Positions 1 to 13,607 of a stretch of DNA of 64,000 bases are shown here, piece after piece (position 1 is the stretch's first letter; each line of letters starts with the position of its first letter). The notes under the pieces are model-generated. The model saw only the letters and a list, made by a program, of their open reading frames with translations. It was not told the DNA's origin and searched no databases. The stretch lies in contig NZ_CP129884.1 in the NCBI RefSeq assembly GCF_030490285.1, positions 434,001 to 498,000 of the forward strand. The letters are read 5' to 3'. Source of the DNA: Methylomonas montana (GTDB lineage Bacteria; Pseudomonadota; Gammaproteobacteria; Methylococcales; Methylomonadaceae). The translations under genes and the position numbers were made by a program.

Positions 1-1592
1 AAGATATGGCAAGCCATTTATTTGCCGAAGGCGCGAATGTAGTGCTGGCTCATGGTAAAAGCAGTTTGCATACCGCGTTGAAAACCATAGACCGCACTAC
101 GGCGCAAGGCTCGGAAGATGCATCGCAGCAGGCGGCTCGCTGGTTAACGGCCAGTAAAAAACGCGCATTTCTGGGGCAGATTGGCGTTTGCACAATAGAC
201 CAAGTGCTACTGTCGGTATTGCCGGTCAAGCATAAATTCGTGCGTAGTTTCGGTGTCCAGAAAAGCCTGTTGATTGTCGATGAAGTCCATGCTTATGACA
301 GCTATATGTATGGTCTATTGGCCAAAGTGCTGGAACAGCAGCATCAAGCAGGCGGCAGCGTGTTGCTGTTATCGGCGACTTTGCCGCAAAACCAGCGCCA
401 ATATCTAGCCAACAGTTGGGACAAAACCGCTATTGAAAACACCGATGTTTATCCGCTGATTACCCAGATTTACAATCGACAAACGCCGGGCTCGTTTCCT
501 ATTACCGATAGTCAACAATTGCCCGAACATCGTGAAGTCATGCTGGAAACTTGGCAATTACCCAAGCTGCAGTTTGACGATGCAAGCTTGCAACACATTA
601 TTTCCGCAGCCAGTCAGGGCGCAAAAGTCGCTGTGATTTGCAACTTGGTCGCCGATGCTCAGGGCTTGGCAAAACGCTTGTCTGACGTAGCCATCAATCC
701 GGATATTCCAGTCGATTTATTTCATTCCCGGTTTCGTTTTGCTGATCGGCAAGTTATAGAAGATGCTGTTAAAACCCGATACGGCAAAGACGAGAAAAAA
801 CGCGTACTAGGTGGGCGAATTTTGATTGCCACCCAAGTCATTGAACAGAGCTTGGATTTAGATTTCGACTGGATGATCACTCAGCTTTGCCCGGTTGATT
901 TATTGTTCCAACGCATGGGGCGCTTGCATCGCCATTTAAGGCCAGCAGGAAACAGGTCGCCGGATTTTAGAGTGCCGCGTTGTGTGGTAATTGTGCCTGA
1001 ACAGGCTCAACAATACGGACATACAGGCGAATATGTTTATCAAAACATCCGTGTGTTATGGCGCACCGAGCAACTGATTGGTCAGCATTCCAGCGTTGTG
1101 TTTCCCAAGGCTTATCGCGATTGGATAGGCAAAGTTTATCAAGACGATCCTTGGCCTGAGGAGCCGTCTATTATCACTGAGGCGTTTGAGCATTATCACG
1201 ATACCGTGCAAGAGACCGCCAAAATGGCTGCCGCTTGGGTGATGAATCTCGGCGTGGCGGAGCCTTTTTCCGACGAAAGCGATAAAGCAAGCCTGTTAAC
1301 TCGCGACGGCGAAATGAGCTTGACCGTGGTGCCGGTGCTTATTTCGGATAATCAACGATTTACCTTAGACCGAGAGGTAATGGATAAGCAAAGCAAGCTG
1401 TATTGGGAGCAACTCAGTTTAAATAGCATTTCGGTGCCAAATTCTTGGATCAGCCGGTTGGCTGAATGTCCCAAGGAAGATGGCGTCTATTTTCTGGCCT
1501 TGCAGGAAGACGGCGATCACTGGCGAACCGTGCTAGGCAAGCAGCAAATTATTTACAGCAAGACAATAGGCTTGCGGGTTGAAAATAATTAA
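1..1592 (+). CDS. cas3: CRISPR-associated helicase/nuclease Cas3, type I-E (5' end outside window)
   Basis: Cas3 is the ATP-dependent helicase-nuclease recruited by Cascade to degrade invading DNA. The reading frame is open from the first base, so the gene starts upstream; the N-terminal HD nuclease domain and Walker A motif are not in the window. What remains is the helicase half: a DEVHAYD motif II typical of I-E Cas3, an LSATLP motif III, ATQVIEQSLDLDFD (motif V region) and a QRMGRLHRH motif VI arginine finger, followed by the accessory C-terminal domain. The stop is TAA at 1590-1592. An antitoxin gene follows after 37 bp and probably shares its transcript, ending at the terminator near 1885-1918. 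The internal ATG at 6 is unlikely to be the true start because it falls inside the helicase core. Confidence 0.96.
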   Translation, partial: DMASHLFAEGANVVLAHGKSSLHTALKTIDRTTAQGSEDASQQAARWLTASKKRAFLGQIGVCTIDQVLLSVLPVKHKFVRSFGVQKSLLIVDEVHAYDSYMYGLLAKVLEQQHQAGGSVLLLSATLPQNQRQYLANSWDKTAIENTDVYPLITQIYNRQTPGSFPITDSQQLPEHREVMLETWQLPKLQFDDASLQHIISAASQGAKVAVICNLVADAQGLAKRLSDVAINPDIPVDLFHSRFRFADRQVIEDAVKTRYGKDEKKRVLGGRILIATQVIEQSLDLDFDWMITQLCPVDLLFQRMGRLHRHLRPAGNRSPDFRVPRCVVIVPEQAQQYGHTGEYVYQNIRVLWRTEQLIGQHSSVVFPKAYRDWIGKVYQDDPWPEEPSIITEAFEHYHDTVQETAKMAAAWVMNLGVAEPFSDESDKASLLTRDGEMSLTVVPVLISDNQRFTLDREVMDKQSKLYWEQLSLNSISVPNSWISRLAECPKEDGVYFLALQEDGDHWRTVLGKQQIIYSKTIGLRVENN

Positions 1593-1629: not shown

Positions 1630-1869
1630 ATGAAAACGATCAATGCTACCCAAGCCAAACAATCTTTCGGCGAATTGTTAAACAACGCCCAGCAGGAGCC
1701 GGTTGCCATCCAGAAGCACCAGAAAGATTTTGCCATTTTAGTGTCGTCCGCACGTTACCAAGAGTTATTAGCATTTGAAGACACATGTCTGCACAACTTG
1801 GCCGTATTAGCCGAACAGGAAGGCTATATTGGTGCCGATGCCAGTAAGAATTTGTTGGATAGTATTTGA
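1630..1869 (+). CDS. Phd/YefM-family antitoxin, last gene of the cas3 transcript
   Basis: This 79-residue protein begins MKTINATQAKQSFGELLNNA, the N-terminal pattern of Phd/YefM antitoxins, which bind their own operator and neutralise a partner toxin through a C-terminal tail. A strong AGAGGAGG ribosome binding site sits 6-8 nt before the ATG. It lies 37 bp after cas3 and is followed by an intrinsic terminator. No toxin follows directly. The nearest RelE-superfamily toxin starts at 2166, beyond the mini-CRISPR. YefM-YoeB style pairs combine this antitoxin family with a RelE-type toxin, so the two may be a split pair; that pairing is an inference. Confidence 0.85.
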   Translation: MKTINATQAKQSFGELLNNAQQEPVAIQKHQKDFAILVSSARYQELLAFEDTCLHNLAVLAEQEGYIGADASKNLLDSI

Positions 1870-1884
1870 TAGGCAAATCTGACT

Positions 1885-1918
1885 TATAAAAAAGGGGTGA
1901 TAACTGCTCACCCCTTTT
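1885..1918. terminator. bidirectional intrinsic terminator between phd and the mini-CRISPR
   Basis: Arms AAAAGGGGTGA (1890-1900) and TCACCCCTTTT (1908-1918) form a perfect 11-bp stem with a 7-nt loop. On the plus strand the stem ends in TTTTGTTTT, terminating cas3-phd. On the minus strand it is followed by a run of six T (1893-1888), giving a strong terminator for the mini-CRISPR transcript that arrives from the right. Confidence 0.85.
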
Positions 1919-2008
1919 GTTTTAAGCCCCGCGGGTGCGGGGAACACTGAGCAATCTAGTTAATTAACCAGATTTTATTTGGTTCATCCTCGCGGGTGTG
2001 AGGATGGG
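1919..2008 (-). CRISPR. single-spacer mini-CRISPR (crRNA-like RNA) with two degenerate type I-E repeats
   Basis: Read on the minus strand, 2008-1980 and 1947-1919 are degenerate versions of the 29-bp repeat of the main array, separated by exactly 32 nt (1979-1948), the spacer length of that array. The first repeat matches 22 of 29 positions. Its last eight bases (ATGAACCA, against ATGAACCG) are almost intact, and one stem change is compensated (C8/G19 to T8/A19), although A10 faces C17. The second repeat keeps 20 of its first 21 bases, including the whole hairpin, while its last eight are lost. So the parts needed for one mature Cas6e-processed 61-nt crRNA (5' handle, 32-nt guide, 3' hairpin) are largely preserved and the dispensable ends have decayed. 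A terminator follows directly and a promoter-like sequence precedes it. The guide starts AATAAAATCTGG. Confidence 0.9.
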
Positions 2009-2011
2009 TGG

Positions 2012-2042
2012 ATTTTACACGAAAGCAATAAGTTTTTTCCAA
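2012..2042 (-). promoter_or_regulatory. candidate promoter of the mini-CRISPR (minus strand)
   Basis: On the minus strand TTGGAA (2042-2037) and TAAAAT (2017-2012) form a sigma70-like pair with 19-nt spacing, slightly longer than ideal. Transcription would start near 2004-2006, at the left edge of the first degenerate repeat and before its hairpin, so the RNA would have essentially no leader. The -35 lies inside the candidate Cascade target site. Confidence 0.5.
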
Positions 2043-2057
2043 TCAGATTTTATTCTT
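2023..2057 (-). promoter_or_regulatory. candidate Cascade target site (AAG PAM plus seed match to the mini-CRISPR spacer)
   Basis: On the minus strand the sequence reads AAG (2057-2055) followed by AATAAAATCTG (2054-2044). These 11 bases are identical to the first 11 bases of the mini-CRISPR spacer. After position 12 the 32-nt protospacer diverges, although ATTGCT near the distal end is shared with a one-base offset. AAG is the canonical I-E PAM. The site sits between the two divergent promoters, 8 bp from the -35 box of the relE-Cascade promoter and over the -35 of the mini-CRISPR promoter. Seed-only pairing would be expected to permit Cascade binding without Cas3 cleavage. Confidence 0.75.
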
Positions 2058-2065
2058 AGAAAAAA

Positions 2066-2094
2066 TTGACAGGCATTTTTATGGAGAGTAGGAT
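2066..2094 (+). promoter_or_regulatory. sigma70 promoter of the relE-cas8e-cas11-cas7e-cas5e-cas6e operon
   Basis: A perfect TTGACA -35 box (2066-2071) is followed after 17 bp by TAGGAT (2089-2094), a good -10 box. Transcription should begin near 2101. It is the only convincing promoter between the phd terminator and the Cascade genes. Confidence 0.8.
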
Positions 2095-2165: not shown

Positions 2166-2447
2166 ATGCGTCAGATTGATTTCACTAAATCAGCAGAAAA
2201 AAGCCTGCGAAAACTGGCCGAATCGGATCAGCGTATCGCCCGGCAAATCAAAGTCAAACTACTGGCTTTACTGCAAGAACCGCAGCCGCAGGAGTCGCTA
2301 AAAATGGTTGGCAATCCCGAATATCTTCGGGTTCGGGTCGGTAAATACAGGATCATCTACCGCTTTGACGATGCCAAACTTTACATCGTGCTGATCGCCA
2401 AACGGGAAATTGTTTACGAAGAATTTGCCCGACTCATGCACAGATAA
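2166..2447 (+). CDS. RelE/ParE-superfamily toxin, first gene of the Cascade operon
   Basis: This 93-residue basic protein has the compact RelE fold signature: an N-terminal FTKSAEKSLRKL helix and the core strand RVRVGKYRIIYRFDD followed by a YIVLIAKREIVY strand. Family members are mRNA interferases or gyrase poisons. The ATG at 2166 is chosen over an in-frame TTG at 2163; the AGGAG at 2151-2155 is 10 nt from the ATG. It is the first cistron after the promoter at 2066-2094 and lies 31 bp before cas8e. Its only nearby antitoxin candidate is the Phd-type gene on the far side of the mini-CRISPR. A second, different RelE-type toxin is at 8745. Confidence 0.85.
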   Translation: MRQIDFTKSAEKSLRKLAESDQRIARQIKVKLLALLQEPQPQESLKMVGNPEYLRVRVGKYRIIYRFDDAKLYIVLIAKREIVYEEFARLMHR

Positions 2448-2478: not shown

Positions 2479-4023
2479 ATGAACCTACTCACTGACGACT
2501 GGATACCGGTTGAAATCGACGGAAAGTCGCAACGCATTTCCCTGCAAACCCTACTTTGCGACGATCCGGATTGCATAATCAAAACCTTTCGCGATGACAT
2601 GGAGCTGGCTACCTTGCAGTTGTTGGTTTGTCTGGTGCAGGTAGTGTTGATGCCGGACGACAAAAAAACATTACTCAGCCGCTGGCAAAGCCCGATGTCT
2701 GCAAGCGATTATAAACAAGGGATCAAATCGTATCTCGACTGGTTTGATCTGCTGCACCCCAAAACCCCGTTTATGCAGACGGCCAGCGTTGTGCCGGAAA
2801 AGGGCAACAAAAACTGGGCGTCCTTACAAAAGCTGTTTATGGGCTTGCCGGAAAGAAGCAGTTCCAGCCCCTCATCCAGTGCTTTTTTCGATACCACGGA
2901 TGAAATTACTGCGCTCCATATCGGCGACGCAGCCATCGCCTTGTTCCAGCAAGCTACGAATGGTTTTAGCCTGGGCGGTGTTGGGTATTCGGTGGGACTA
3001 AAAGGCTCCATGCCTCTAACGACGCTAATTGTGGGGGACACACTCAGAAAGACCGTCTGGTGCAATGTCCTGAGTCGCGATTTTTTGCAACCTTTCCATA
3101 TTCTCGATGCGTCGCTACAAGAACCTACCTGGGTTACGCCGCCACATAGCAAGTTTACAGAGGAACATGCACACCACATCGGCTTGGCAAGGGGTTTGTT
3201 TTGGCAACCGGCAAAAGTTAAATTGGAGTTGATTAATGGTGAAGTGACCGGCTTTCATAAAGATGCGGGTACATGCACCATCACTAATTACTGGCTACAT
3301 CCTCATACTCCTATCGATATTCCTCGACTTAAAGCCAATAACCCTAAAGAAAAACCGTATCTATCAGCGCAAGGTGATTTGCCGCTATGGGGACAAATGC
3401 TGAGCTATTTTTACACTCCCAATCAAGCCGACCGGCTCAGAGAAAAAGGCGCAAGTTCCGCGTTGGTAGTCCAGCAATACGAGCAGGTCTGGCTAACCGA
3501 GGGTATAGCTTTAGCCGTCGGCGGCTATGTAAAAGGTAATAGCGCCGAAAGTTTGGCCGGCAGACGACATGAAATATATAGCCTTGCTCAGGGCTGGCAG
3601 GACAACAGCCCTGAACTGGATAACCTGATTGCATTTGCCTTGCTGTGTCAACAGCGTCTGAACTTGGCTGTAAATGAGTTTGCAGATATGGCGGAAAAGA
3701 CCTTCAAAGATCGCCGAGAAAACAAACCCAAGAAACCCGGCAAGGACGGACATTTTAAAAAGAACCTCAAAGCCAAAGCCAAACAACTGTATTTCAATAA
3801 TTCCGAAAGTCTGATGCATGGCTTATTAAAGGATTTTCACTGGAATGATGACTTAGTGCCGCATCAGCAAAAATTTACCGGCTTAGCCAAACAAGTATTC
3901 GAACAAGTCGTCAGCCCCTATGAACACGAAGACAAAATGCTGGAGCCGGTTTTAATCAGCCGCCAAAAACTAAACGACATGCTCAACAAATTAAATAAAC
4001 CAGCAACAGGAGTTAGCCCATGA
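2479..4023 (+). CDS. cas8e: Cascade large subunit Cas8e (CasA/Cse1)
   Basis: Cas8e recognises the PAM and starts DNA unwinding in type I-E Cascade, then recruits Cas3. The 514-residue length and the start MNLLTDDWIPV are characteristic of CasA, as are the LHPKTPFMQT region and the late four-helix bundle segment. It follows the RelE-type toxin by 31 bp and overlaps cas11 by 4 bp (ATGA), so the Cascade genes are translationally coupled. No frameshift or stop interrupts it, so Cascade appears intact. Confidence 0.96.
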   Translation: MNLLTDDWIPVEIDGKSQRISLQTLLCDDPDCIIKTFRDDMELATLQLLVCLVQVVLMPDDKKTLLSRWQSPMSASDYKQGIKSYLDWFDLLHPKTPFMQTASVVPEKGNKNWASLQKLFMGLPERSSSSPSSSAFFDTTDEITALHIGDAAIALFQQATNGFSLGGVGYSVGLKGSMPLTTLIVGDTLRKTVWCNVLSRDFLQPFHILDASLQEPTWVTPPHSKFTEEHAHHIGLARGLFWQPAKVKLELINGEVTGFHKDAGTCTITNYWLHPHTPIDIPRLKANNPKEKPYLSAQGDLPLWGQMLSYFYTPNQADRLREKGASSALVVQQYEQVWLTEGIALAVGGYVKGNSAESLAGRRHEIYSLAQGWQDNSPELDNLIAFALLCQQRLNLAVNEFADMAEKTFKDRRENKPKKPGKDGHFKKNLKAKAKQLYFNNSESLMHGLLKDFHWNDDLVPHQQKFTGLAKQVFEQVVSPYEHEDKMLEPVLISRQKLNDMLNKLNKPATGVSP

Positions 4024-4562
4024 GTCAACAGACAGAAGAGGACAGACAGCAGTTCTTACAAACTTTGTATAGCGAATATCAAGGCTTGAGTAATGGCGAT
4101 AAAGCGGGCATTCGCCGCACCATAGAGCCCGACGATTTACTGCTGAATCCAGCTTTCTATCACTTACTCCAAGCAACACTGGGTCAATTCCAAGCGGCTG
4201 AATTGACCAAAGCGCGTGATTTCTTCAAAAACCTGTCTCAAGTCGCACGATTGGTTTACTTGTTGCCGTTTGTTTCTCACGAGCCGCAAGGCAAACATTT
4301 CGGCGCTGTTTTAAGAGAGCTGGAGATCAGCGAACGGCGTTTGTTTTTGGTGATGCGCTCCGAATATCCGCAAGATTTGATCCAGTTACGGCGTTTATTA
4401 AAGCAATCCAAAGAACACAAAATCGACGGCATCGACTTCGGCGAGCTTTTGTATTACTGGGGTACTAATAAGAAACGGCAGTTGATGAAAGACTATTACT
4501 TGCCGTCCGGTAAAACACCCAGCGAAGAAACTATGGAAAACGTCTTAGACGTGCCTGAATAA
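4020..4562 (+). CDS. cas11: Cascade small subunit Cas11 (CasB/Cse2)
   Basis: Cas11 is present twice in Cascade and stabilises the displaced strand of the R-loop. The 180-residue protein is slightly longer than the E. coli CasB and shows the family core around FYHLLQATLG and LPFVSHEPQGKHFG, followed by the SERRLFLVMRSE helix. Its start overlaps the cas8e stop. A 53-bp gap separates it from cas7e; that gap contains TAAAATCTGATTAA (4582-4595), which resembles positions 3-16 of the mini-CRISPR spacer with one difference but lacks an AAG PAM and the first two seed bases. Confidence 0.93.
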   Translation: MSQQTEEDRQQFLQTLYSEYQGLSNGDKAGIRRTIEPDDLLLNPAFYHLLQATLGQFQAAELTKARDFFKNLSQVARLVYLLPFVSHEPQGKHFGAVLRELEISERRLFLVMRSEYPQDLIQLRRLLKQSKEHKIDGIDFGELLYYWGTNKKRQLMKDYYLPSGKTPSEETMENVLDVPE

Positions 4563-4615
4563 ACACTCCAACTATCGAATCTAAAATCTGATTAAACCTG
4601 CACAGGAACAGCACC

Positions 4616-5761
4616 ATGCCTAATAAAAACTTTGTTAATTTCCATATTTTGATCTCCCATAGCCCGTCTTGCCTGAATCGCGATGACATGGGTATGCAGA
4701 AAACCGCAATTTTTGGCGGTACACGCCGGGTACGAATTTCCAGTCAGAGTTTGAAACGTGCGATCCGCACATCGGCATACTACGAGGCCGAATTCGGCAA
4801 GCCCTCCGAACGAACCAAGCAACTAACTTTACTGCGCGACAAATACCGGGAGTTGCTGAAAGATAAATTTGATGAATCAGTAATAGACACCATTTTGATG
4901 GCGGTTGCAGGTGTTAAAGAAATTGAAGACTTAACGACAGAAACCAAGGGTGATAAAACAAAAACCAAGGGCACCGAATCCGGCGCAGTCGCAGCTTGGT
5001 CAGTGCATGAAATCGAAAAATATTGCCAGCTTTATACTCAGCTACAGACCGAACATTCCGACGACAAGGCATTTCAAAAAGCTTGGGAAAAAGAAACCAA
5101 AAAAGACGGATTCAAAAAATTTAACGACGCTTTTCAAAACAGCGTCGATATTGCCTTATCCGGACGCATGGCGACCTCCGGCATTATGACTTCAATCGAT
5201 GCCGCCCTAGCCGTGGCCCATGTCATCACGACGCATACCGTGGATGGTGATCTGGACTGGTTTACCGCCGTTGACGATTTAACTCAGGAAGCAGGAGAAA
5301 CCGGCTCGGCACATTTGGACACCCAGGAGTTCAGTGCAGGTGTGTTTTACCGTTACGCATCTCTGAATCTGGCGCAATTGCAAGAAAACCTTGGCGAAGT
5401 CAGCCGCGAAAAAGCCCTGGAAATTGCCGCGCATACCTTGCATATGCTGGCTACCGTTATTCCGGAAGCCAAACGCAACAGCACCGCCGCCGACAATCCA
5501 GCCGATTTTGTCTGTGTTGCCTTGAGCGACCAGCCGATTTCCTTGGCGAACGCCTTTGAGGAGCCGGTAAAAAGCAAACATGGCTTTCTCAAACCGTCCA
5601 TCGAGCAATTCATTGGCTACAAAGAACGGGTTTATCAGGGCTACGAGTTGGATGATCAGGTCGCCTTTTTCAGTTTGCACGACACGGGTCAATTACAAGG
5701 CCAAGCATGCACGTCATTGAGCAAACTCGAAAGTTGGTTAAAACAAGACGGTGAGGTTTAA
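4616..5761 (+). CDS. cas7e: Cascade backbone subunit Cas7e (CasC/Cse4)
   Basis: Six copies of Cas7e form the helical backbone that holds the crRNA spacer. The 381-residue protein has the typical start with NFHILISHSPSCLNRDD and the RVRISSQSLKRA segment, followed by a long variable thumb insertion and the GRMATSGIMTSIDAALAVAH region. Its ATG follows an ACAGGAACAG ribosome binding region. It is followed after 2 bp by cas5e. Confidence 0.96.
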   Translation: MPNKNFVNFHILISHSPSCLNRDDMGMQKTAIFGGTRRVRISSQSLKRAIRTSAYYEAEFGKPSERTKQLTLLRDKYRELLKDKFDESVIDTILMAVAGVKEIEDLTTETKGDKTKTKGTESGAVAAWSVHEIEKYCQLYTQLQTEHSDDKAFQKAWEKETKKDGFKKFNDAFQNSVDIALSGRMATSGIMTSIDAALAVAHVITTHTVDGDLDWFTAVDDLTQEAGETGSAHLDTQEFSAGVFYRYASLNLAQLQENLGEVSREKALEIAAHTLHMLATVIPEAKRNSTAADNPADFVCVALSDQPISLANAFEEPVKSKHGFLKPSIEQFIGYKERVYQGYELDDQVAFFSLHDTGQLQGQACTSLSKLESWLKQDGEV

Positions 5762-5763
5762 CC

Positions 5764-6441
5764 ATGCCCGAATTTTTAATCCTTAAATGCCAGGGCGCGA
5801 TGCAGGCTTGGGGCGGACACACTTATGAAGATTACCGCCCCAGTTTGATATTTCCCACCCGTAGTGCCGTAGTAGGGTTGCTGGGGGCTTGCTTGGGCTT
5901 GGAGCGAGGGCAGTCGGAGCAGCTTAAATTATTGAGTGACAGTTTTGAGCTGACGGTATTGGCTAATCCACGTCAGATCGAGCGACGTCATTTTGATCGA
6001 GAAATCGAACCGAGAAAGGTAACGCTACATAAAATGACCGACTATCATACCGTTTTGGCTGCCCGCCGCGCCGACGGTGGCCAACGCGACGATGCCATCG
6101 TCTCGCGGCGCGAGTATTTATGCGATGCCGAATTCACCTTGGCGCTGGTTTTTAAAGATCATGCCGAATACGGTTTGCAGCAGGTGCTGCAAGACATTAA
6201 AAAGCCGAAATACACGCCTTATCTGGGGCGGCGTTCTTGTCCATTGCATAGGCCGCTATTCGAAAGAGTTGTGGAAGCCGAAAGCGCTGAACAAGCCTTA
6301 AAGCAAATCGAGAGCACCGGCACACTTTACAGCGAAATCCCGCTGAAACCTGATCACGCCCCGATGCAAGTCCGCGACTTGCCACTATTCGGCAAAAACC
6401 GCCGCTTTGTGACACGGCCTGTCTACGTGTTGGGAGGTTGA
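5764..6441 (+). CDS. cas5e: Cascade subunit Cas5e (CasD)
   Basis: Cas5e binds the 5' handle of the crRNA and caps the Cas7e backbone next to Cas8e. The 225-residue protein begins MPEFLILKCQGAMQAWGGH, with the QGAMQAWG motif and the TRSAVVGLLGACLGLER segment diagnostic of CasD. It ends with LPLFGKNRRFVTRPVYVLGG. It lies 2 bp after cas7e and 1 bp before cas6e. Confidence 0.95.
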   Translation: MPEFLILKCQGAMQAWGGHTYEDYRPSLIFPTRSAVVGLLGACLGLERGQSEQLKLLSDSFELTVLANPRQIERRHFDREIEPRKVTLHKMTDYHTVLAARRADGGQRDDAIVSRREYLCDAEFTLALVFKDHAEYGLQQVLQDIKKPKYTPYLGRRSCPLHRPLFERVVEAESAEQALKQIESTGTLYSEIPLKPDHAPMQVRDLPLFGKNRRFVTRPVYVLGG

Positions 6442-6442
6442 G

Positions 6443-7153
6443 GTGTACTTTAGTCGAGTCAGAATTTCACCCAGCCGTTTAAGCCAACTTTTTCAATACA
6501 ATCACTACCAGCTACATCAGTTGTTATGGACATTATTTAAAGACAAACCTGAAAAAGAGCGCGATTTTCTGTTTCGTCAGGATACCGACCGGCAGGGAAT
6601 ACCGGTTTTTTATGTGTTATCTAAATATTTGCCCAACAGCTCTGACAACTCGCTGATAGTCGAGCCCAAACCTTTTCAGCCGAAACTACAAACAGGCGAT
6701 TTATTGTCTTTTAGCCTACGCGCCAATCCGGTTGAGCAAGTCAAGCAAGAACGTAGCGCGTCCGAGCAACTGCAACATGCGCAGCAGCGCAAAGCCAGAA
6801 ATTTACCGGAAAAAGAAACCAAAAAGCGCATTCATCATGATGTGGTCATGCACTTGAAAAAATCGCTGACCGATGACGAACGGCAATGCTATTCGCAAGC
6901 TGAACTGGAACAGCAAGCCGGTGACAAATGGTTGAACGAGCGTGCAGAGAACAACGGTTTCCGGGTGTTATCAGTCTCCGCGCAAGGCTATCAGCAGCAC
7001 CACTTCAAAAAACGCCAAATCAAAATCAGTACGCTGGATTTTGAAGGCGTATTGGAAGTGACCGATCCTGAGCTATTTATGAAAGTGTTGTATGAGGGGG
7101 TAGGCCGGGCTAAGGCTTTCGGTTGCGGCTTGCTGATGGTAAAGAGAGGGTGA
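6443..7153 (+). CDS. cas6e: crRNA-processing endoribonuclease Cas6e (CasE/Cse3)
   Basis: Cas6e cleaves the repeat at the base of its hairpin and leaves the 8-nt 5' handle on each crRNA. The 236-residue protein starts at GTG 6443, one base after the cas5e stop. Near residue 25 it has the YQLHQLLW motif whose histidine corresponds to the catalytic His20 of E. coli Cas6e, and it ends with the glycine-rich GVGRAKAFGCGLLMV loop. It is the only intact Cas6e here and would have to process both the main array and the mini-CRISPR. A decayed second copy of the same C-terminus lies at 8377-8535. Confidence 0.95.
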   Translation: MYFSRVRISPSRLSQLFQYNHYQLHQLLWTLFKDKPEKERDFLFRQDTDRQGIPVFYVLSKYLPNSSDNSLIVEPKPFQPKLQTGDLLSFSLRANPVEQVKQERSASEQLQHAQQRKARNLPEKETKKRIHHDVVMHLKKSLTDDERQCYSQAELEQQAGDKWLNERAENNGFRVLSVSAQGYQQHHFKKRQIKISTLDFEGVLEVTDPELFMKVLYEGVGRAKAFGCGLLMVKRG

Positions 7154-7243: not shown

Positions 7244-7480
7244 ATGCAAGCCATCCTAAACAATACCGGGCAAATCACCATTCCAGAGCCGATACGCCGG
7301 CAGTTGCGCTTGCAGCCTGGCGATGCGGTTGAGGTGGTGATTGGCGAGGCCGGCGAAATCAAACTGTTGCCGGTCGGCGTTTCGATCACCAAGCTCAAAG
7401 GGATGCTACCTCAGCCGGCAAAGCCGTTGTCGCTCGAAGCCATGGAAGTAGCTATCGCTAAGGGTGCCATTGATTCATGA
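7244..7480 (+). CDS. AbrB/VapB-type antitoxin
   Basis: The 78-residue protein has the swapped-hairpin AbrB N-terminus (GQITIPEPIRRQLRLQPGD) used by VapB and MazE antitoxins to bind their own operator, with a short acidic C-terminal tail to cover the toxin. AGAGGTAA before the ATG is a plausible ribosome binding site. It overlaps the PIN-domain toxin by 4 bp (ATGA), the standard antitoxin-first arrangement. The pair is inserted between cas6e and cas1. Confidence 0.88.
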   Translation: MQAILNNTGQITIPEPIRRQLRLQPGDAVEVVIGEAGEIKLLPVGVSITKLKGMLPQPAKPLSLEAMEVAIAKGAIDS

Positions 7481-7887
7481 TCGGTCTGGATCCCAATGTC
7501 TTGGTGCGTTATATCGTTCAGGACGATCCGGCTCAAGCGGCCATCGCCAGCGCATTCATCGAAAAGCATTGCACCGAAACTACACCGGGGTTCGTTAACA
7601 ATGTCGTGTTGGTAGAATTGGTTTGGGTGTTGGAACGTGGTTATGGTTACGACAAAACCGCTATCCTTTCGCTGCTCAAGCAAATGGCTGCGACGACAGA
7701 ATTGAGATTGGAAAATTTGGAGTCGGTATGGCAAGCAATCAAAGCATACGAGGCTGGATGTGCCGGGTTTGCGGACTGTTTAATTGCTGTTGTTAATCGC
7801 CAATATGCTTGCCGCGCGACTTATACTTTTGATCGACGCGCGGCAAAAAATTCTGGCTTTGAATTGTTGCCTTCGACAGACGGTTAA
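7477..7887 (+). CDS. PIN-domain toxin (VapC family)
   Basis: VapC toxins are Mg-dependent ribonucleases that usually cut tRNA or rRNA. This 136-residue protein keeps the acidic PIN residues: Asp5 (GLDPN), a glutamate in LVELVWVLE, an aspartate in GFADCLIA and an aspartate in TFDRRAAK. The usual D-T/S-N of the first motif is D-P-N here, an unusual substitution beside the first catalytic aspartate that could weaken the enzyme. The antitoxin precedes it with a 4-bp overlap. Confidence 0.88.
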   Translation: MIGLDPNVLVRYIVQDDPAQAAIASAFIEKHCTETTPGFVNNVVLVELVWVLERGYGYDKTAILSLLKQMAATTELRLENLESVWQAIKAYEAGCAGFADCLIAVVNRQYACRATYTFDRRAAKNSGFELLPSTDG

Positions 7888-7924
7888 CGGGCACGCAAAG
7901 CCAATCAATCCAAGGTAAAACGTT

Positions 7925-8293
7925 ATGCAGCCTACTTCAACCCGTAGTTTTTATACGCCCGACGACGATCGGGCAATCAATGCCGGTATTGCCGGTGATC
8001 CCGATACATTTGAGATGAGTGATGCCCAATTTCTCTCGGTATTCGACGCCATCGCCGATACGCCCGAACAATCGGTTAATCTGCAAGCTCGCGCGGAATT
8101 GATGCAACAAATCGCCGACCGCATCCAAGCCAACGATTGGACACAGGCGCAGGCCGCTACCGCCTGCGGCGTGACGCAGCCGCGTATCAACGATTTGTTG
8201 CGTGGGCGGGTTTCCAAATTTTCGCTGGATGCGCTGGTCAATATCGCCACGGCGTTGGGTTGCCGGGTTCATGTGATTCTTGAGGCCGCTTAA
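7925..8293 (+). CDS. XRE-type HTH antitoxin-like regulator without a partner toxin
   Basis: The 122-residue protein carries an XRE helix-turn-helix in its C-terminal half (WTQAQAATACGVTQPRINDLLRGRVSKFSLDALVNIATALG), the kind found in antitoxins paired with Gp49/HigB-like toxins. The N-terminal 50 residues contain an acidic segment ending in VFDAIADTPEQ, also typical of that family. No HigB-like gene lies upstream or downstream, so it is either orphaned or acts as a regulator. It follows the PIN toxin by 37 bp and precedes the cas6e remnant. Confidence 0.75.
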   Translation: MQPTSTRSFYTPDDDRAINAGIAGDPDTFEMSDAQFLSVFDAIADTPEQSVNLQARAELMQQIADRIQANDWTQAQAATACGVTQPRINDLLRGRVSKFSLDALVNIATALGCRVHVILEAA

Positions 8294-8376
8294 ATGGGGG
8301 TGCCGCCGACGAGCATTTGCCCAAAATTGCAAAACAGCGTCTACACCTGGCACGGCCTGCCGCAAAAAGCCGCTAA

Positions 8377-8535
8377 AAAGGCGAAAAATCTGGCTTCAGC
8401 TCGGTCGATTTCACCGGCGAAATGCAAATCACCGACCCGGAGAAATTCCGCCAGGCGTTGTTTCAAGGCATAGGCCGCTCAAAGGCCTTCGGATGCGGTT
8501 TGTTGATGGTTCGACGCGTAGTACCATGTTCGTAA
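8377..8535 (+). pseudogene. C-terminal remnant of a second cas6e
   Basis: After an in-frame TAA at 8374-8376, the frame reads KGEKSGFSSVDFTG, then EMQITDPEKFRQALFQG, then IGRSKAFGCGLLMVRRV, and stops at 8533-8535. This matches the last 45 or so residues of the intact Cas6e upstream (DFEGVLEVTDPELF and GVGRAKAFGCGLLMV), including the glycine-rich RNA-binding loop, but differs at many positions. It is therefore a diverged homologue rather than a recent duplication. There is no start codon or catalytic histidine. About 80 bp before it in the same frame is a short open stretch of no recognisable family. Confidence 0.85.
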
Positions 8536-8557
8536 AATTATCACTGGAGGTTAAGCC

Positions 8558-8755
8558 ATGATCGAATTACCCATACCTACCGAAACCCGCATCATTCAAG
8601 CCGCACGGGCCGCCGGCGTTAGCATTTCGACATTCTTGGATCGTTTGCTCGATGAATATATTGAAGACAAGGCCGATATAGAACAAGCCGAACGAGCATT
8701 GCAGGAGCCGGGAGAAATAAGCGCCGAAGAGCTTAAAGCTAAATATGGCTTATAA
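8558..8755 (+). CDS. ribbon-helix-helix-type antitoxin (RelB/ParD-like)
   Basis: The 65-residue protein has a short ribbon-helix-helix-like N-terminus (ELPIPTETRIIQAARAAGVSISTFLDRLLDEY) followed by an acidic tail, the layout of RelB/ParD antitoxins. A good GGAGG precedes the ATG. It overlaps the RelE-type toxin gene by 11 bp, so this pair is intact, unlike the one at the head of the Cascade operon. Confidence 0.82.
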   Translation: MIELPIPTETRIIQAARAAGVSISTFLDRLLDEYIEDKADIEQAERALQEPGEISAEELKAKYGL

Positions 8756-9005
8756 AATTGCCTACAAAACTAGCGCCGAAAAAAGCTTTTCTAAACTTCC
8801 GAAAGATATTCAAAAGCGCATTTATGCTGCTGTTCAACATTTGGCCGACAATCCAAGGCCGCCGGGCGTTAAAAAGCTGCAATCGGTTCTTGATCTTTAT
8901 CGTATCCGGGTTGGCGATTACCGTGTCATTTACACCATTGACGAAGGTGAGCTCAAAATTCTCGTGGTAACAATCGGCCACCGGCGTGACGTTTATCAAT
9001 CGTGA
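8745..9005 (+). CDS. RelE/ParE-superfamily toxin
   Basis: The 86-residue protein has the RelE core KSFSKLPKDIQKRI, RIRVGDYRVIYTIDEG and a terminal VVTIGHRRDVY strand, where the late HRRDVY motif is typical of active RelE mRNA interferases. It is preceded by, and overlaps, its RHH antitoxin. It ends 36 bp before cas1, so cas1-cas2 may be read from this toxin-antitoxin promoter. Confidence 0.9.
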   Translation: MAYKIAYKTSAEKSFSKLPKDIQKRIYAAVQHLADNPRPPGVKKLQSVLDLYRIRVGDYRVIYTIDEGELKILVVTIGHRRDVYQS

Positions 9006-9041: not shown

Positions 9042-10269
<1,228 letters not shown>

Positions 10270-10403: not shown

Positions 10404-13400
10404 GCGTTCCCCGCACCCGCGGGGATGAACCGCCGAAATGCAAGCGTTAGCGCATGCCTGGCTGGCGTTCCCCGCACCCGCGGGGATGAACCGCGTCCGA
10501 AACGATCCTGAGCCTGCCAGCGGTAGCGTTCCCCGCACCCGCGGGGATGAACCGCCAATACCGGAGACACCATGAGTGCTGAAGACGCGTTCCCCGCACC
10601 CGCGGGGATGAACCGGACAGGTGGCCGGCATGATTGGCGGCGGCTTTGCGTTCCCCGCACCCGCGGGGATGAACCGATCAGCCGGCCCCGGATGGCGTCC
10701 AGTGCGGTGCGTTCCCCGCACCCGCGGGGATGAACCGTAACCCTCCAAATGCGCATCCAGCGGCGGCAAGCGTTCCCCGCACCCGCGGGGATGAACCGTC
10801 GTCATGGTTGAAAGCCTTAATCATCTGATCGCGTTCCCCGCACCCGCGGGGATGAACCGCCATTCGAATAACTCCTCGATAGCCATCTCCTGCGTTCCCC
10901 GCACCCGCGGGGATGAACCAGTCGCGCTGGCGTTGACGGATGTTATTAGCCCGCGTTCCCCGCACCCGCGGGGATGAACCGCTCAAGCGGCAGGCCGGCG
11001 CGCTCCAAATTGGGCGTTCCCCGCACCCGCGGGGATGAACCGATGCCGTAATAAAACTCATCGTCAAAGCCCAGGCGTTCCCCGCACCCGCGGGGATGAA
11101 CCGAAAGACCCAAAAGCCAACAGCGCGGCATTGAGGCGTTCCCCGCACCCGCGGGGATGAACCGTTACCAATGAAAATATTCGCATTTATGAGCCAGCGT
11201 TCCCCGCACCCGCGGGGATGAACCGTTAGATATTGCCGGCAAATTTTTCAGCGGTTCGCGTTCCCCGCACCCGCGGGGATGAACCGCCGTTAACCCTGGT
11301 AGATGGTCTGTTGTCTCTAGCGTTCCCCGCACCCGCGGGGATGAACCGACGTGGCAAACGGTCTAAAATACTCCGAAATTGCGTTCCCCGCACCCGCGGG
11401 GATGAACCGGAAGTATTCCGCCCGTAAGCCAAGGAGCAAAGGCGTTCCCCGCACCCGCGGGGATGAACCGCGCGTCGTGATGACGCCCTATTCCCTTGAT
11501 GGGCGTTCCCCGCACCCGCGGGGATGAACCGGTTGTCATCAACTCCTGAGCGTTATCACCCAGCGCGTTCCCCGCACCCGCGGGGATGAACCGTATGTTG
11601 CTCGCGGAATGGGGATGTCTCCAAAGCGTTCCCCGCACCCGCGGGGATGAACCGCCATGATTAACCCCCGAAAACCAACGACCGACGCGTTCCCCGCACC
11701 CGCGGGGATGAACCGGCCGGCCAACGCATCTTTAATTGCAGCAGTATGCGTTCCCCGCACCCGCGGGGATGAACCGCGGATCAGCCAGCACTTCACGCAG
11801 CTTGCGGAGGCGTTCCCCGCACCCGCGGGGATGAACCGCCATCTGAAATCCTGCTTCATATTGAGCAGCTGCGTTCCCCGCACCCGCGGGGATGAACCGG
11901 CTTAGACTTTTGATCGACCACCGGAACCGACGCGTTCCCCGCACCCGCGGGGATGAACCGGTAACGCCGCAATCGTTTGTTACGGTTGGGAGGCGTTCCC
12001 CGCACCCGCGGGGATGAACCGTCGTCGAACTCAACTGGCGAGACAATCCAAAAGCGTTCCCCGCACCCGCGGGGATGAACCGAACGATCAGCGCCGGCCA
12101 CGTTTCGCCATAAAGCGTTCCCCGCACCCGCGGGGATGAACCGATGCCAGCATTCATTCGGCAGGTCGTCAACGAGCGTTCCCCGCACCCGCGGGGATGA
12201 ACCGTCGTCTTTGCTTACCCAATCTTCAATCAGGCAGCGTTCCCCGCACCCGCGGGGATGAACCGCGCCCTCTACGGCAGAGACAAACTTGCCTTCCGCG
12301 TTCCCCGCACCCGCGGGGATGAACCGTCAAACCCATCAAAACACAAATGCTCAGCAAAGCGTTCCCCGCACCCGCGGGGATGAACCGGCCGATTATGAGG
12401 CTTGGGCGCTGGCTGTGCCGCGTTCCCCGCACCCGCGGGGATGAACCGCCGCGCCGCAGCTGGTAGCCGTTGCAGGATAAGCGTTCCCCGCACCCGCGGG
12501 GATGAACCGAATCTATCTCGATTCCGAACACGATGAATTACGCGTTCCCCGCACCCGCGGGGATGAACCGGTTCATGAAAATCAGGTTGCGCAGCACCGA
12601 GCGCGTTCCCCGCACCCGCGGGGATGAACCGTCTTTCCGCGAGGCAATGGGATCACTGGGGCTGCGTTCCCCGCACCCGCGGGGATGAACCGCCGGCGCG
12701 TTTCATCTCCTCCAGCGCGGCTTTGCGTTCCCCGCACCCGCGGGGATGAACCGTTAATCATGCCGGCCGCTCCTTTTTAATCCGCGCGTTCCCCGCACCC
12801 GCGGGGATGAACCGGCTTGCAGCTGCTCCAGGATGTCGGCGGGCAGGCGTTCCCCGCACCCGCGGGGATGAACCGATCAGTCAACAGCGGGTGATTCGTT
12901 ACGTCGGGCGTTCCCCGCACCCGCGGGGATGAACCGCTGGCGGAATACATGCGATTCCAATGCGATCAGCGTTCCCCGCACCCGCGGGGATGAACCGCCG
13001 AAAAAATCGGCTTTCGCCAACGCGACTACGCGTTCCCCGCACCCGCGGGGATGAACCGCGTTCTTGGGCAAATCATATCGCCGTATCGCAGCGTTCCCCG
13101 CACCCGCGGGGATGAACCGTTACGACGAGAAAACTCACGCGCGGTTACCTTGCGTTCCCCGCACCCGCGGGGATGAACCGTATTGTCGCCGCGAGCCGGG
13201 GAGAACCGGGATGCGTTCCCCGCACCCGCGGGGATGAACCGCCTTTTAATTGAGCTTGCTGTTCTGCCGGAATGCGTTCCCCGCACCCGCGGGGATGAAC
13301 CGCCGGTCTTTGGCATATTGAGCGCGCATGGTTTGCGTTCCCCGCACCCGCGGGGATGAACCGGCACCTGGAAGGTTAACGCCGTGCCCTTTATCGCGTT

Positions 13401-13607
13401 CCCCGCACCCGCGGGGATGAACCGGCGTTTGTCGGCACGGCGGCGGCGAAAACCAAGCGTTCCCCGCACCCGCGGGGATGAACCGATCAATGAACCAAGG
13501 GCTTAGCAGTATAAGTGGCGTTCCCCGCACCCGCGGGGATGAACCGCAAGCATCACAAGTCGGCGAGTTACAACTAACGCGTTCCCCGCACCCGCGGGGA
13601 TGGACCG
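10404..13607 (+). CRISPR. type I-E CRISPR array, 53 repeats and 52 spacers
   Basis: Repeats are 29 bp, beginning GCGTTCCCCGC and ending GCGGGGATGAACCG, with the CCCCGC/GCGGGG hairpin and the 8-nt ATGAACCG handle of the I-E family. The period is 61 bp (32-nt spacers) except for three 33-nt spacers (those before the repeats at 11320, 11565 and 11810). Counting start positions from 10404 to 13579 gives 53 repeats. They appear essentially identical; exceptions seen are the repeat at 10892, which ends in A, and the last one at 13579, which has GGACCG for GAACCG, marking the trailer end. Transcription is expected left to right from the leader. No duplicated spacer was noticed by eye. The 277 bp after the array up to the tRNA hold no recognisable gene. 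Confidence 0.99.

Follow-up and report, generated by a model that had tools for sequence, protein, structure and literature searches.

What does a single-spacer CRISPR (clustered regularly interspaced short palindromic repeats) array do on the strand opposite to a type I-E cas operon, between cas3 and cas8e? The question is raised by a 64,000-nucleotide stretch of the genome of the methanotroph Methylomonas montana, hereafter the window, in which such a mini-CRISPR stands next to a promoter that leads into a relE-like toxin gene and then into the genes of Cascade. An earlier note, made from the letters alone, had read the element as a type I-E autoregulator resembling a CRISPR RNA (crRNA), of the kind called CreR. 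We found support for this reading, which also survived a test of spacer-target covariation, and on the sequence evidence autorepression of the relE-Cascade operon by a CreR-type guide is the most likely explanation of the element (probability about 0.82). Its parts, numbered by position in the window, are the following, where PAM denotes the protospacer-adjacent motif.

1889-1918, minus strand: intrinsic-terminator-like hairpin and T run at the predicted end of the minus-strand transcript (RNA fold)
1919-1947, minus strand: repeat 2 (R2), 29 nt, Cas6e stem kept, 3' handle decayed
1948-1979, minus strand: spacer of the CreR-like RNA, 32 nt, self-complementary (minimum free energy -8.0, z -4.5)
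1980-2008, minus strand: repeat 1 (R1), 29 nt, would yield the 5' handle AUGAACCA, stem extended
2012-2041, minus strand: candidate creR promoter TGGAAA-18-TAAAAT (consensus 9/12, weak), -35 box inside the target protospacer
2023-2054, minus strand: protospacer of the CreR spacer, matched at nt 1-11 and 13-14
2055-2057, minus strand: PAM AAG (sequence reading)
2066-2094, plus strand: promoter TTGACA-17-TAGGAT of relE and Cascade (consensus 10/12; TTGACA at 2066-2071)

The spacer begins with AATAAAATCTG, and the same letters recur at 2054-2044 of the minus strand directly after AAG (2057-2055), just as the earlier note had it. Spacer and target pair at nt 1-11, are mismatched at nt 12 and pair again at nt 13-14 (to 2041), after which pairing ends. 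None of 20,000 dinucleotide shuffles of 2012-2162 reproduced AAG followed by the 12 leading matches observed (shuffle maximum, 9), and 1 of 20,000 equaled the observed match when the PAM requirement was dropped; shuffles of 2012-2478 gave 0 of 5,000 with the PAM and 1 of 5,000 without it. PAM and seed together (AAGAATAANATCTG) occur a single time in the 4,634,080-base genome, at the target site. The best of the 52 canonical spacers in the window's own array matched the same gap at 10 of 15 positions, compared to 12 of 15 for the CreR spacer. Given the shuffle results, we rejected a chance origin of the seed match, in agreement with the earlier claim that a seed beside a PAM would be unlikely to recur by chance.

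A check named beforehand was that spacer seed and target should covary across related cas loci while the rest of the spacer drifts, and this is what we observed. Cas8e was found in 79 of 237 genomes of the window's family, at 94 listed places. Upstream stretches were taken from the 30 best Cas8e places, 15 genus hits and 47 further ones; the 13 left out of the 94 were for the most part fragments or at contig edges. The 81 family regions contain one place in G021 and one in G018 in duplicate, and the family set overlaps the set of named loci. A first search rule returned 18 distinct family loci in which the spacer of a guide finds a match upstream of cas8e. In these 18 pairs, with the target picked by plain identity over all 17 positions, mismatches fill 25 of 36 cells at positions 6 and 12 but 2 of 216 at the other twelve of positions 1-14 (p = 9e-24, a nominal value because the loci are related). 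Read from the sequences, this pattern is the signature of Cascade pairing; in a type I-B CreA, according to the available part of the published account, mutation of position 6 or 12 was tolerated, whereas each of the ten remaining positions among the first 12 proved essential (PMC8501985). Each spacer matches its own target at 12 to 15 of the 15 non-flipped positions, compared to a mean of 5.8 and a maximum of 12 across 290 cross-pairs. Even when the whole gap of the other locus was searched for its best AAG site, the mean was 7.7, and 2 of 290 pairs reached 12 or 13 matches. The PAM is AAG in 17 of the 18 pairs and AAA in one.

Under a blind rule (rule B), 22 of the 81 regions in the family set and 25 of the 76 in the named set matched, whereas none of the controls did (0 of 79 and 0 of 166). 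After inspection we counted 21 family loci in which a mini-CRISPR of this kind stands between cas3 and cas8e, every one having a spacer-target pair of its own; these are the rule-B matches minus one false place that rang twice, plus L041 (PAM AAA). Rule-B matches at L011/L032 (one place), L147, L102, L106 and L140 were rejected by eye for a weak match, a plus-strand guide or apparent cas3 coding. Outside the order Methylococcales, 14 of 80 named loci also carry the element, from Xenorhabdus, Pantoea, Citrobacter, Ectothiorhodospira, Saccharophagus, Porticoccaceae and other gammaproteobacteria. Ten of these came from the blind rule, two from a looser rule alone (L123, handle 7/8 and 10 leading matches; L174, handle 6/8 and 15 leading matches), and two (L099 and L122) were recognized by eye after a peptide described below had been seen. 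Fifteen loci are same-strand, and in L009, L013 and L014 the target is found on the opposite strand. With promoters chosen by hexamer score in the range -4 to +30 and no control run, PAM and best -35 box overlap in 12 of the 15, whereas in the window, L020 and L040 the PAM stands 8 to 10 bp upstream of the box, farther off by roughly one helical turn.

Direct reading and repeat scans bore out the description of the element as two degenerate minus-strand I-E repeats flanking exactly 32 nt. A scan found a single spacer at the cas locus between repeats that match the I-E type of the locus, and the repeat-spacer period of 61 is that of most of the main array. R1 retains AUGAACC, with A rather than G as its last base. 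Its stem carries one compensated change (C-G to T-A) and another that leaves A opposite C without compensation, and it is lengthened by CAT/ATG pairs gained in R1 (RNA fold and inspection by eye). The terminator said to follow the element is visible in the RNA fold but was not listed by a consensus scan, probably because the T run was counted into the stem. By eye, the CAT/ATG pairs carry the Cas6e stem into the 5' handle in R1 of the window, L015 and L040, which might slow processing. A comparison of the DNA with PLSDB plasmids gave no match.

How, then, would the element act? A minus-strand transcript from the promoter near 2012-2041 would carry R1, spacer and R2 and end at 1889-1918, and Cas6e would cut it into a crRNA-like guide with the handle AUGAACCA, to be loaded into the genome's own type I-E Cascade. 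The promoter at 2066-2094 reads into relE and the Cascade genes 8 bp from the PAM, as had been noted before, and Cascade bound at the AAG-flanked site 2054-2041 would block RNA polymerase there, silencing relE and then cas8e-cse2-cas7-cas5-cas6e. Since the match is limited to positions 1-11 and 13-14, Cascade should bind without licensing Cas3, and hence without cleavage. It would also cover the -35 box of the guide's own candidate promoter. The outcome would be negative feedback: when free Cascade falls, through many crRNAs or an anti-CRISPR, the promoter would open.

Several observations weigh against autorepression by such a guide. The creR promoter is a weak consensus match, and the uncompensated R1 change, together with the extended stem that pairs part of the handle, may slow Cas6e. 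The PAM of the window lies 8 bp upstream of the -35 box, so a steric block could be weaker. On the comparative side, the looser rule rang in 14 of 79 control regions, compared to 31 of 80 upstream regions, and because the controls rang too only its strong matches were kept. The 18 loci are also related, with near-duplicates in L013/L014 and L050/L052, so that their counts are not independent.

The order of genes around the element is cas3, a Phd/YefM antitoxin gene, the mini-CRISPR on the opposite strand, the promoter, relE, cas8e, cse2, cas7, cas5, cas6e, genes resembling toxin-antitoxin (TA) systems, cas1, cas2 and the main array.

6-1592, plus strand: cas3, 3' part, start outside the window (NCBIfam PRK09694 Cas3, 4.7e-183)
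1630-1869, plus strand: Phd/YefM-family antitoxin gene (phd), likely cognate to relE (PF02604, 1.3e-8, above cut-off; NCBIfam phd_fam, under cut-off)
2166-2447, plus strand: relE-like toxin gene, first behind the target promoter (PF05016, 6.2e-12; RelE/ParE superfamily)
2479-4023, plus strand: cas8e (cse1), 31 bp behind relE (PF09481, 4e-67)
4020-7153, plus strand: cse2, cas7, cas5 and cas6e (Pfam; cse2 slightly under cut-off)
9042-10269, plus strand: cas1 and cas2 (Pfam)
10404-13484 (bounds approximate), plus strand: main I-E CRISPR array with repeat GCGTTCCCCGCACCCGCGGGGATGAACCG (array scan)

With an antitoxin gene at 1630-1869, which the earlier note had passed over, the mini-CRISPR splits a TA pair: the 296 bp between phd and relE contain the CreR gene and the promoter. 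The relE product matched RelE of solved structures at 3.5e-6 and NCBIfam RelE_StbE at 7e-4, the latter under its cut-off, and both genes are under strong purifying selection (relE, ratio of nonsynonymous to synonymous rates [omega] of 0.08 and 0.07 against two relatives; phd, nonsynonymous rate [dN] of 0.064 and 0.030). A RelE search of the 237 family genomes found matches in 16 at E 1e-10, six of them, including the window, at 72% identity or more. In all five other close homologous loci phd and relE overlap (TGATG), which makes the separated state in the window probably a derived one. The pair lies between cas3 and cas8e, without CreR, in L197, and just upstream of a cas3-like gene (identified by eye) in L196, L198, L199 and L200, an arrangement that suggests a recurrently cas-linked TA family. 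The nearest Cas8e relatives have the two halves separately: Methylomonas koyamae SM2 (L096/L004) has phd-relE and no mini-CRISPR, whereas in a Methylococcaceae metagenome-assembled genome (L095/L054) there is a mini-CRISPR, built on another spacer-target pair, and DUF3800 occupies the position of relE. Judged from this layout, the guide of Cascade should control the RelE toxin as well as the cas genes, and since RelE is the first product of the promoter and its antitoxin comes from the side of cas3, the balance of toxin and antitoxin would be shifted if Cascade were lost.

Two further features of the operon were seen. Between cas6e and cas1 (7244-9005), on the same strand, are MazE/AbrB-PIN genes, a gene for an HTH_37 protein, and an antitoxin-like open reading frame (ORF) overlapping a second toxin gene of the ParE/RelE family. 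Just downstream of the relE-cas promoter, at 2109-2122, we noticed by eye a perfect 14-bp palindrome, TCATCTTAAGATGA, a possible operator for a TA complex or another repressor.

Which gene comes first in the related operons? In 18 of the 21 family loci it encodes a related small protein with one hydrophobic stretch, located upstream of cas8e (L006, L008, L009, L010, L012-L015, L020, L023, L025, L035, L036, L040, L050, L052, L053 and L074). The peptide is 35 to 40 amino acids (aa) long in 16 loci; in L023 (64 aa) and L040 (58 aa) it is longer, with a match over the first ~40 residues. The three family loci that lack it are the window (relE), L054 (DUF3800) and L041 (cas8e directly). HicB-HicA-like genes lie between the peptide gene and cas8e in L009, L013, L014 and L020, and a HicB-like gene alone in L025 (Pfam run on L009). 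The peptide gene is coding, with omega of 0.02 to 0.23 in six estimable pairs; three other pairs had a saturated synonymous rate (dS) and one had no amino-acid change. Two peptides compared with Pfam, NCBIfam and PHROGs gave nothing over cut-off (best Pfam OppC_N, 0.003; PHROGs 0.06 and 0.08).

A hidden Markov model (HMM) built from 21 peptide rows found 21 places in 20 of 311 genomes of the order. Every one lies upstream of cas8e, no more than about 630 bp away, and at some of them HicBA-like genes intervene. Eighteen are the family loci already counted. Of the remainder, L215, from another family of the order, has both mini-CRISPR and target (match and cas8e by eye), L214 (around 1290-1600) shows a lone repeat-2-like copy, with no R1 or spacer found, and a broken peptide frame (by eye, one case), and in L213 the peptide gene is apparently interrupted where the contig ends. 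Beyond the order, similar peptides precede cas8e in 11 of the 14 loci with the element, L163 has a different hydrophobic ORF, and two Ectothiorhodospira loci have none. A class-wide peptide search returned 0 of 369 sampled genomes at E 1e-4, an empty result that is uninformative about absence.

In an automatic table the peptide was scored in 13 of 18 CreR-positive compared to 3 of 63 CreR-negative family loci, and in 18 of 23 compared to 2 of 53 named loci, the two sets overlapping. The table picked a wrong ORF in L052 and L124 and missed the peptide in L023/L152 and L025/L142, where it is visible. Of its five peptide-bearing "negatives," L053, L074, L099 and L122 show a mini-CRISPR on inspection made after the peptide was seen, and L053 and L074 also matched the blind rule. 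The L085 ORF was discarded as a peptide and taken for an unrelated AT-rich ORF.

These neighbors bear on what the element is for. That it has no present role, being either a spacer picked up from the cell's own promoter or a leaderless array in decay, would fit its degenerate repeats and a spacer-target match of only about 14 nt. A captured self-spacer, however, would be expected to match at full length, and gammaproteobacterial loci conserve the element, tolerating mismatches mainly at positions 6 and 12 and keeping the handle and R2 stem; we regard such a relic as very improbable. We see close to an even chance that relE is ordinary TA cargo under its own antitoxin, acting for example at the palindrome at 2109-2122, and rides as a passenger while CreR acts on the Cascade genes. 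The further TA genes in the window operon and the close phd-relE pairs at other cas loci, upstream of the cas3-like gene (L196, L198, L199 and L200) or between cas3 and cas8e without CreR (L197), agree with this, whereas the window is the only one of the six homologous pairs in which relE is separated from phd and set directly behind a CreR target, and no separate promoter is visible by eye in the 31-bp gap between relE and cas8e.

Toxin control could instead be the selected role, as in CreTA or CrePA, with a first-gene toxin freed on loss or inhibition of Cascade and repression of the cas genes as a by-product. The association of the peptide with family mini-CRISPR loci, the confinement of all order-level HMM matches to the region upstream of cas8e, the joint damage to guide and peptide frame in L214, the purifying selection on peptide and relE, and the presence of a known toxin family in the slot of the window all point this way. 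Yet the peptide is a putative toxin, relE is accompanied by an antitoxin of its own, and no such gene was found between target and cas8e in L041, L123 and L127 (the last two Ectothiorhodospira), where cas control alone suffices. Moreover, at least one CreR-negative locus (L005) lacks the whole gap, so that peptide and mini-CRISPR may occur together simply because they are inherited together, and we consider toxin control as the selected role rather unlikely. Autorepression of Cascade by a CreR-type guide could also be combined with a guarded-toxin slot in gammaproteobacterial I-E Cascade operons. Here the first gene, usually the ~36-aa single-pass peptide and RelE in the window, would be repressed by CreR-Cascade and freed together with fresh Cascade upon Cascade loss or an anti-CRISPR block, so that one promoter would give more Cascade and then, should this not suffice, growth arrest; we put this forward tentatively, as possible rather than probable.

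Autoregulation of cas genes by CreR is a published kind. CreRs of types I-B, I-E and V-A act by partial promoter complementarity, according to the available text of PMC13131331, and a review, in its available part, describes CreRs as usually lacking a coupled toxin gene, as a general description and not a definition (PMC12737573). The window element resembles them in being a mini-CRISPR in a cas locus with decayed repeats, a PAM-adjacent partial match to the cas promoter and an expected autorepression of Cascade. It differs in that its promoter drives a type II toxin first, in splitting a Phd-RelE pair and in its self-complementary spacer, and in the relatives the operon is led by a conserved hydrophobic peptide. 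Because relE stands first behind the target promoter, contrary to the usual CreR, we file the element as a CreR variant. With CreTA (an RNA toxin and CreA) it shares a crRNA-like guide, seed pairing at 1-5 and 7-11, a decayed first repeat and Cascade as repressor; in CreA, decay is stronger in the first repeat, as the accessible part of PMC9458426 has it. The repressed unit here, however, codes for proteins, including the Cascade genes, and no toxic RNA of the CreT kind was identified, none having been searched for (for example, in the 2100-2165 leader). CrePA (a CreP protein toxin and CreA) offers a parallel in its putative protein toxin gene under a CreA-type-matched promoter, but CreP typically has a KilA-N domain, again in the review's available part (PMC12737573), whereas here there is no KilA-N toxin but RelE (RelE/ParE superfamily) or a ~36-aa peptide, with cas genes downstream. 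From type II RelBE and Phd-YefM systems, whose order of antitoxin and then RelE-family toxin and whose purifying selection it shares, the window pair differs by the 296 bp with guide-RNA gene and promoter that part it.

What looks new is the pairing of an autorepressor with a toxin gene, and with an unnamed peptide in the relatives; a literature search, which left subscription papers mostly outside, found no paper on the peptide or on relE with CreR. Coupling of immunity and suicide in cas loci was proposed in 2012, according to the accessible part of PMC3506569. An autorepressor wired to a toxin gene would join ideas that have been treated separately, namely CreR (cost control) and CreTA/CrePA (addiction). 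The loci also offer comparative evidence from natural sequences that the pairing rules of Cascade maintain the seeds of I-E CreRs, with positions 6 and 12 free. In the order searched, every place found for the peptide precedes cas8e at a CreR-type locus, including one whose CreR is broken and one that sits at a contig edge; why such genes are part of Cascade operons thereby becomes a directly testable question.

The spacer of the window itself folds at -8.0 kcal/mol (z -4.5), and as speculation, such a hairpin could make the guide a poor competitor against true crRNAs, as would suit a sensor of free Cascade. We had noticed the hairpin before testing it, and some spacers are near-identical; with that in mind, the 18 CreR spacers of Methylococcales surpass the 52 canonical ones in the array of the window in how often they fold better than their shuffles (rank test, p = 7e-7). 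The hairpin was set aside as a feature of CreRs in general, being weak in a second set of 13 spacers, all with p values of 0.07 to 0.97 (12 from outside the order; the 13th, L095, from Methylococcaceae). We hence treat it as lineage-specific, and the tendency of Methylococcales spacers to form hairpins is also new.
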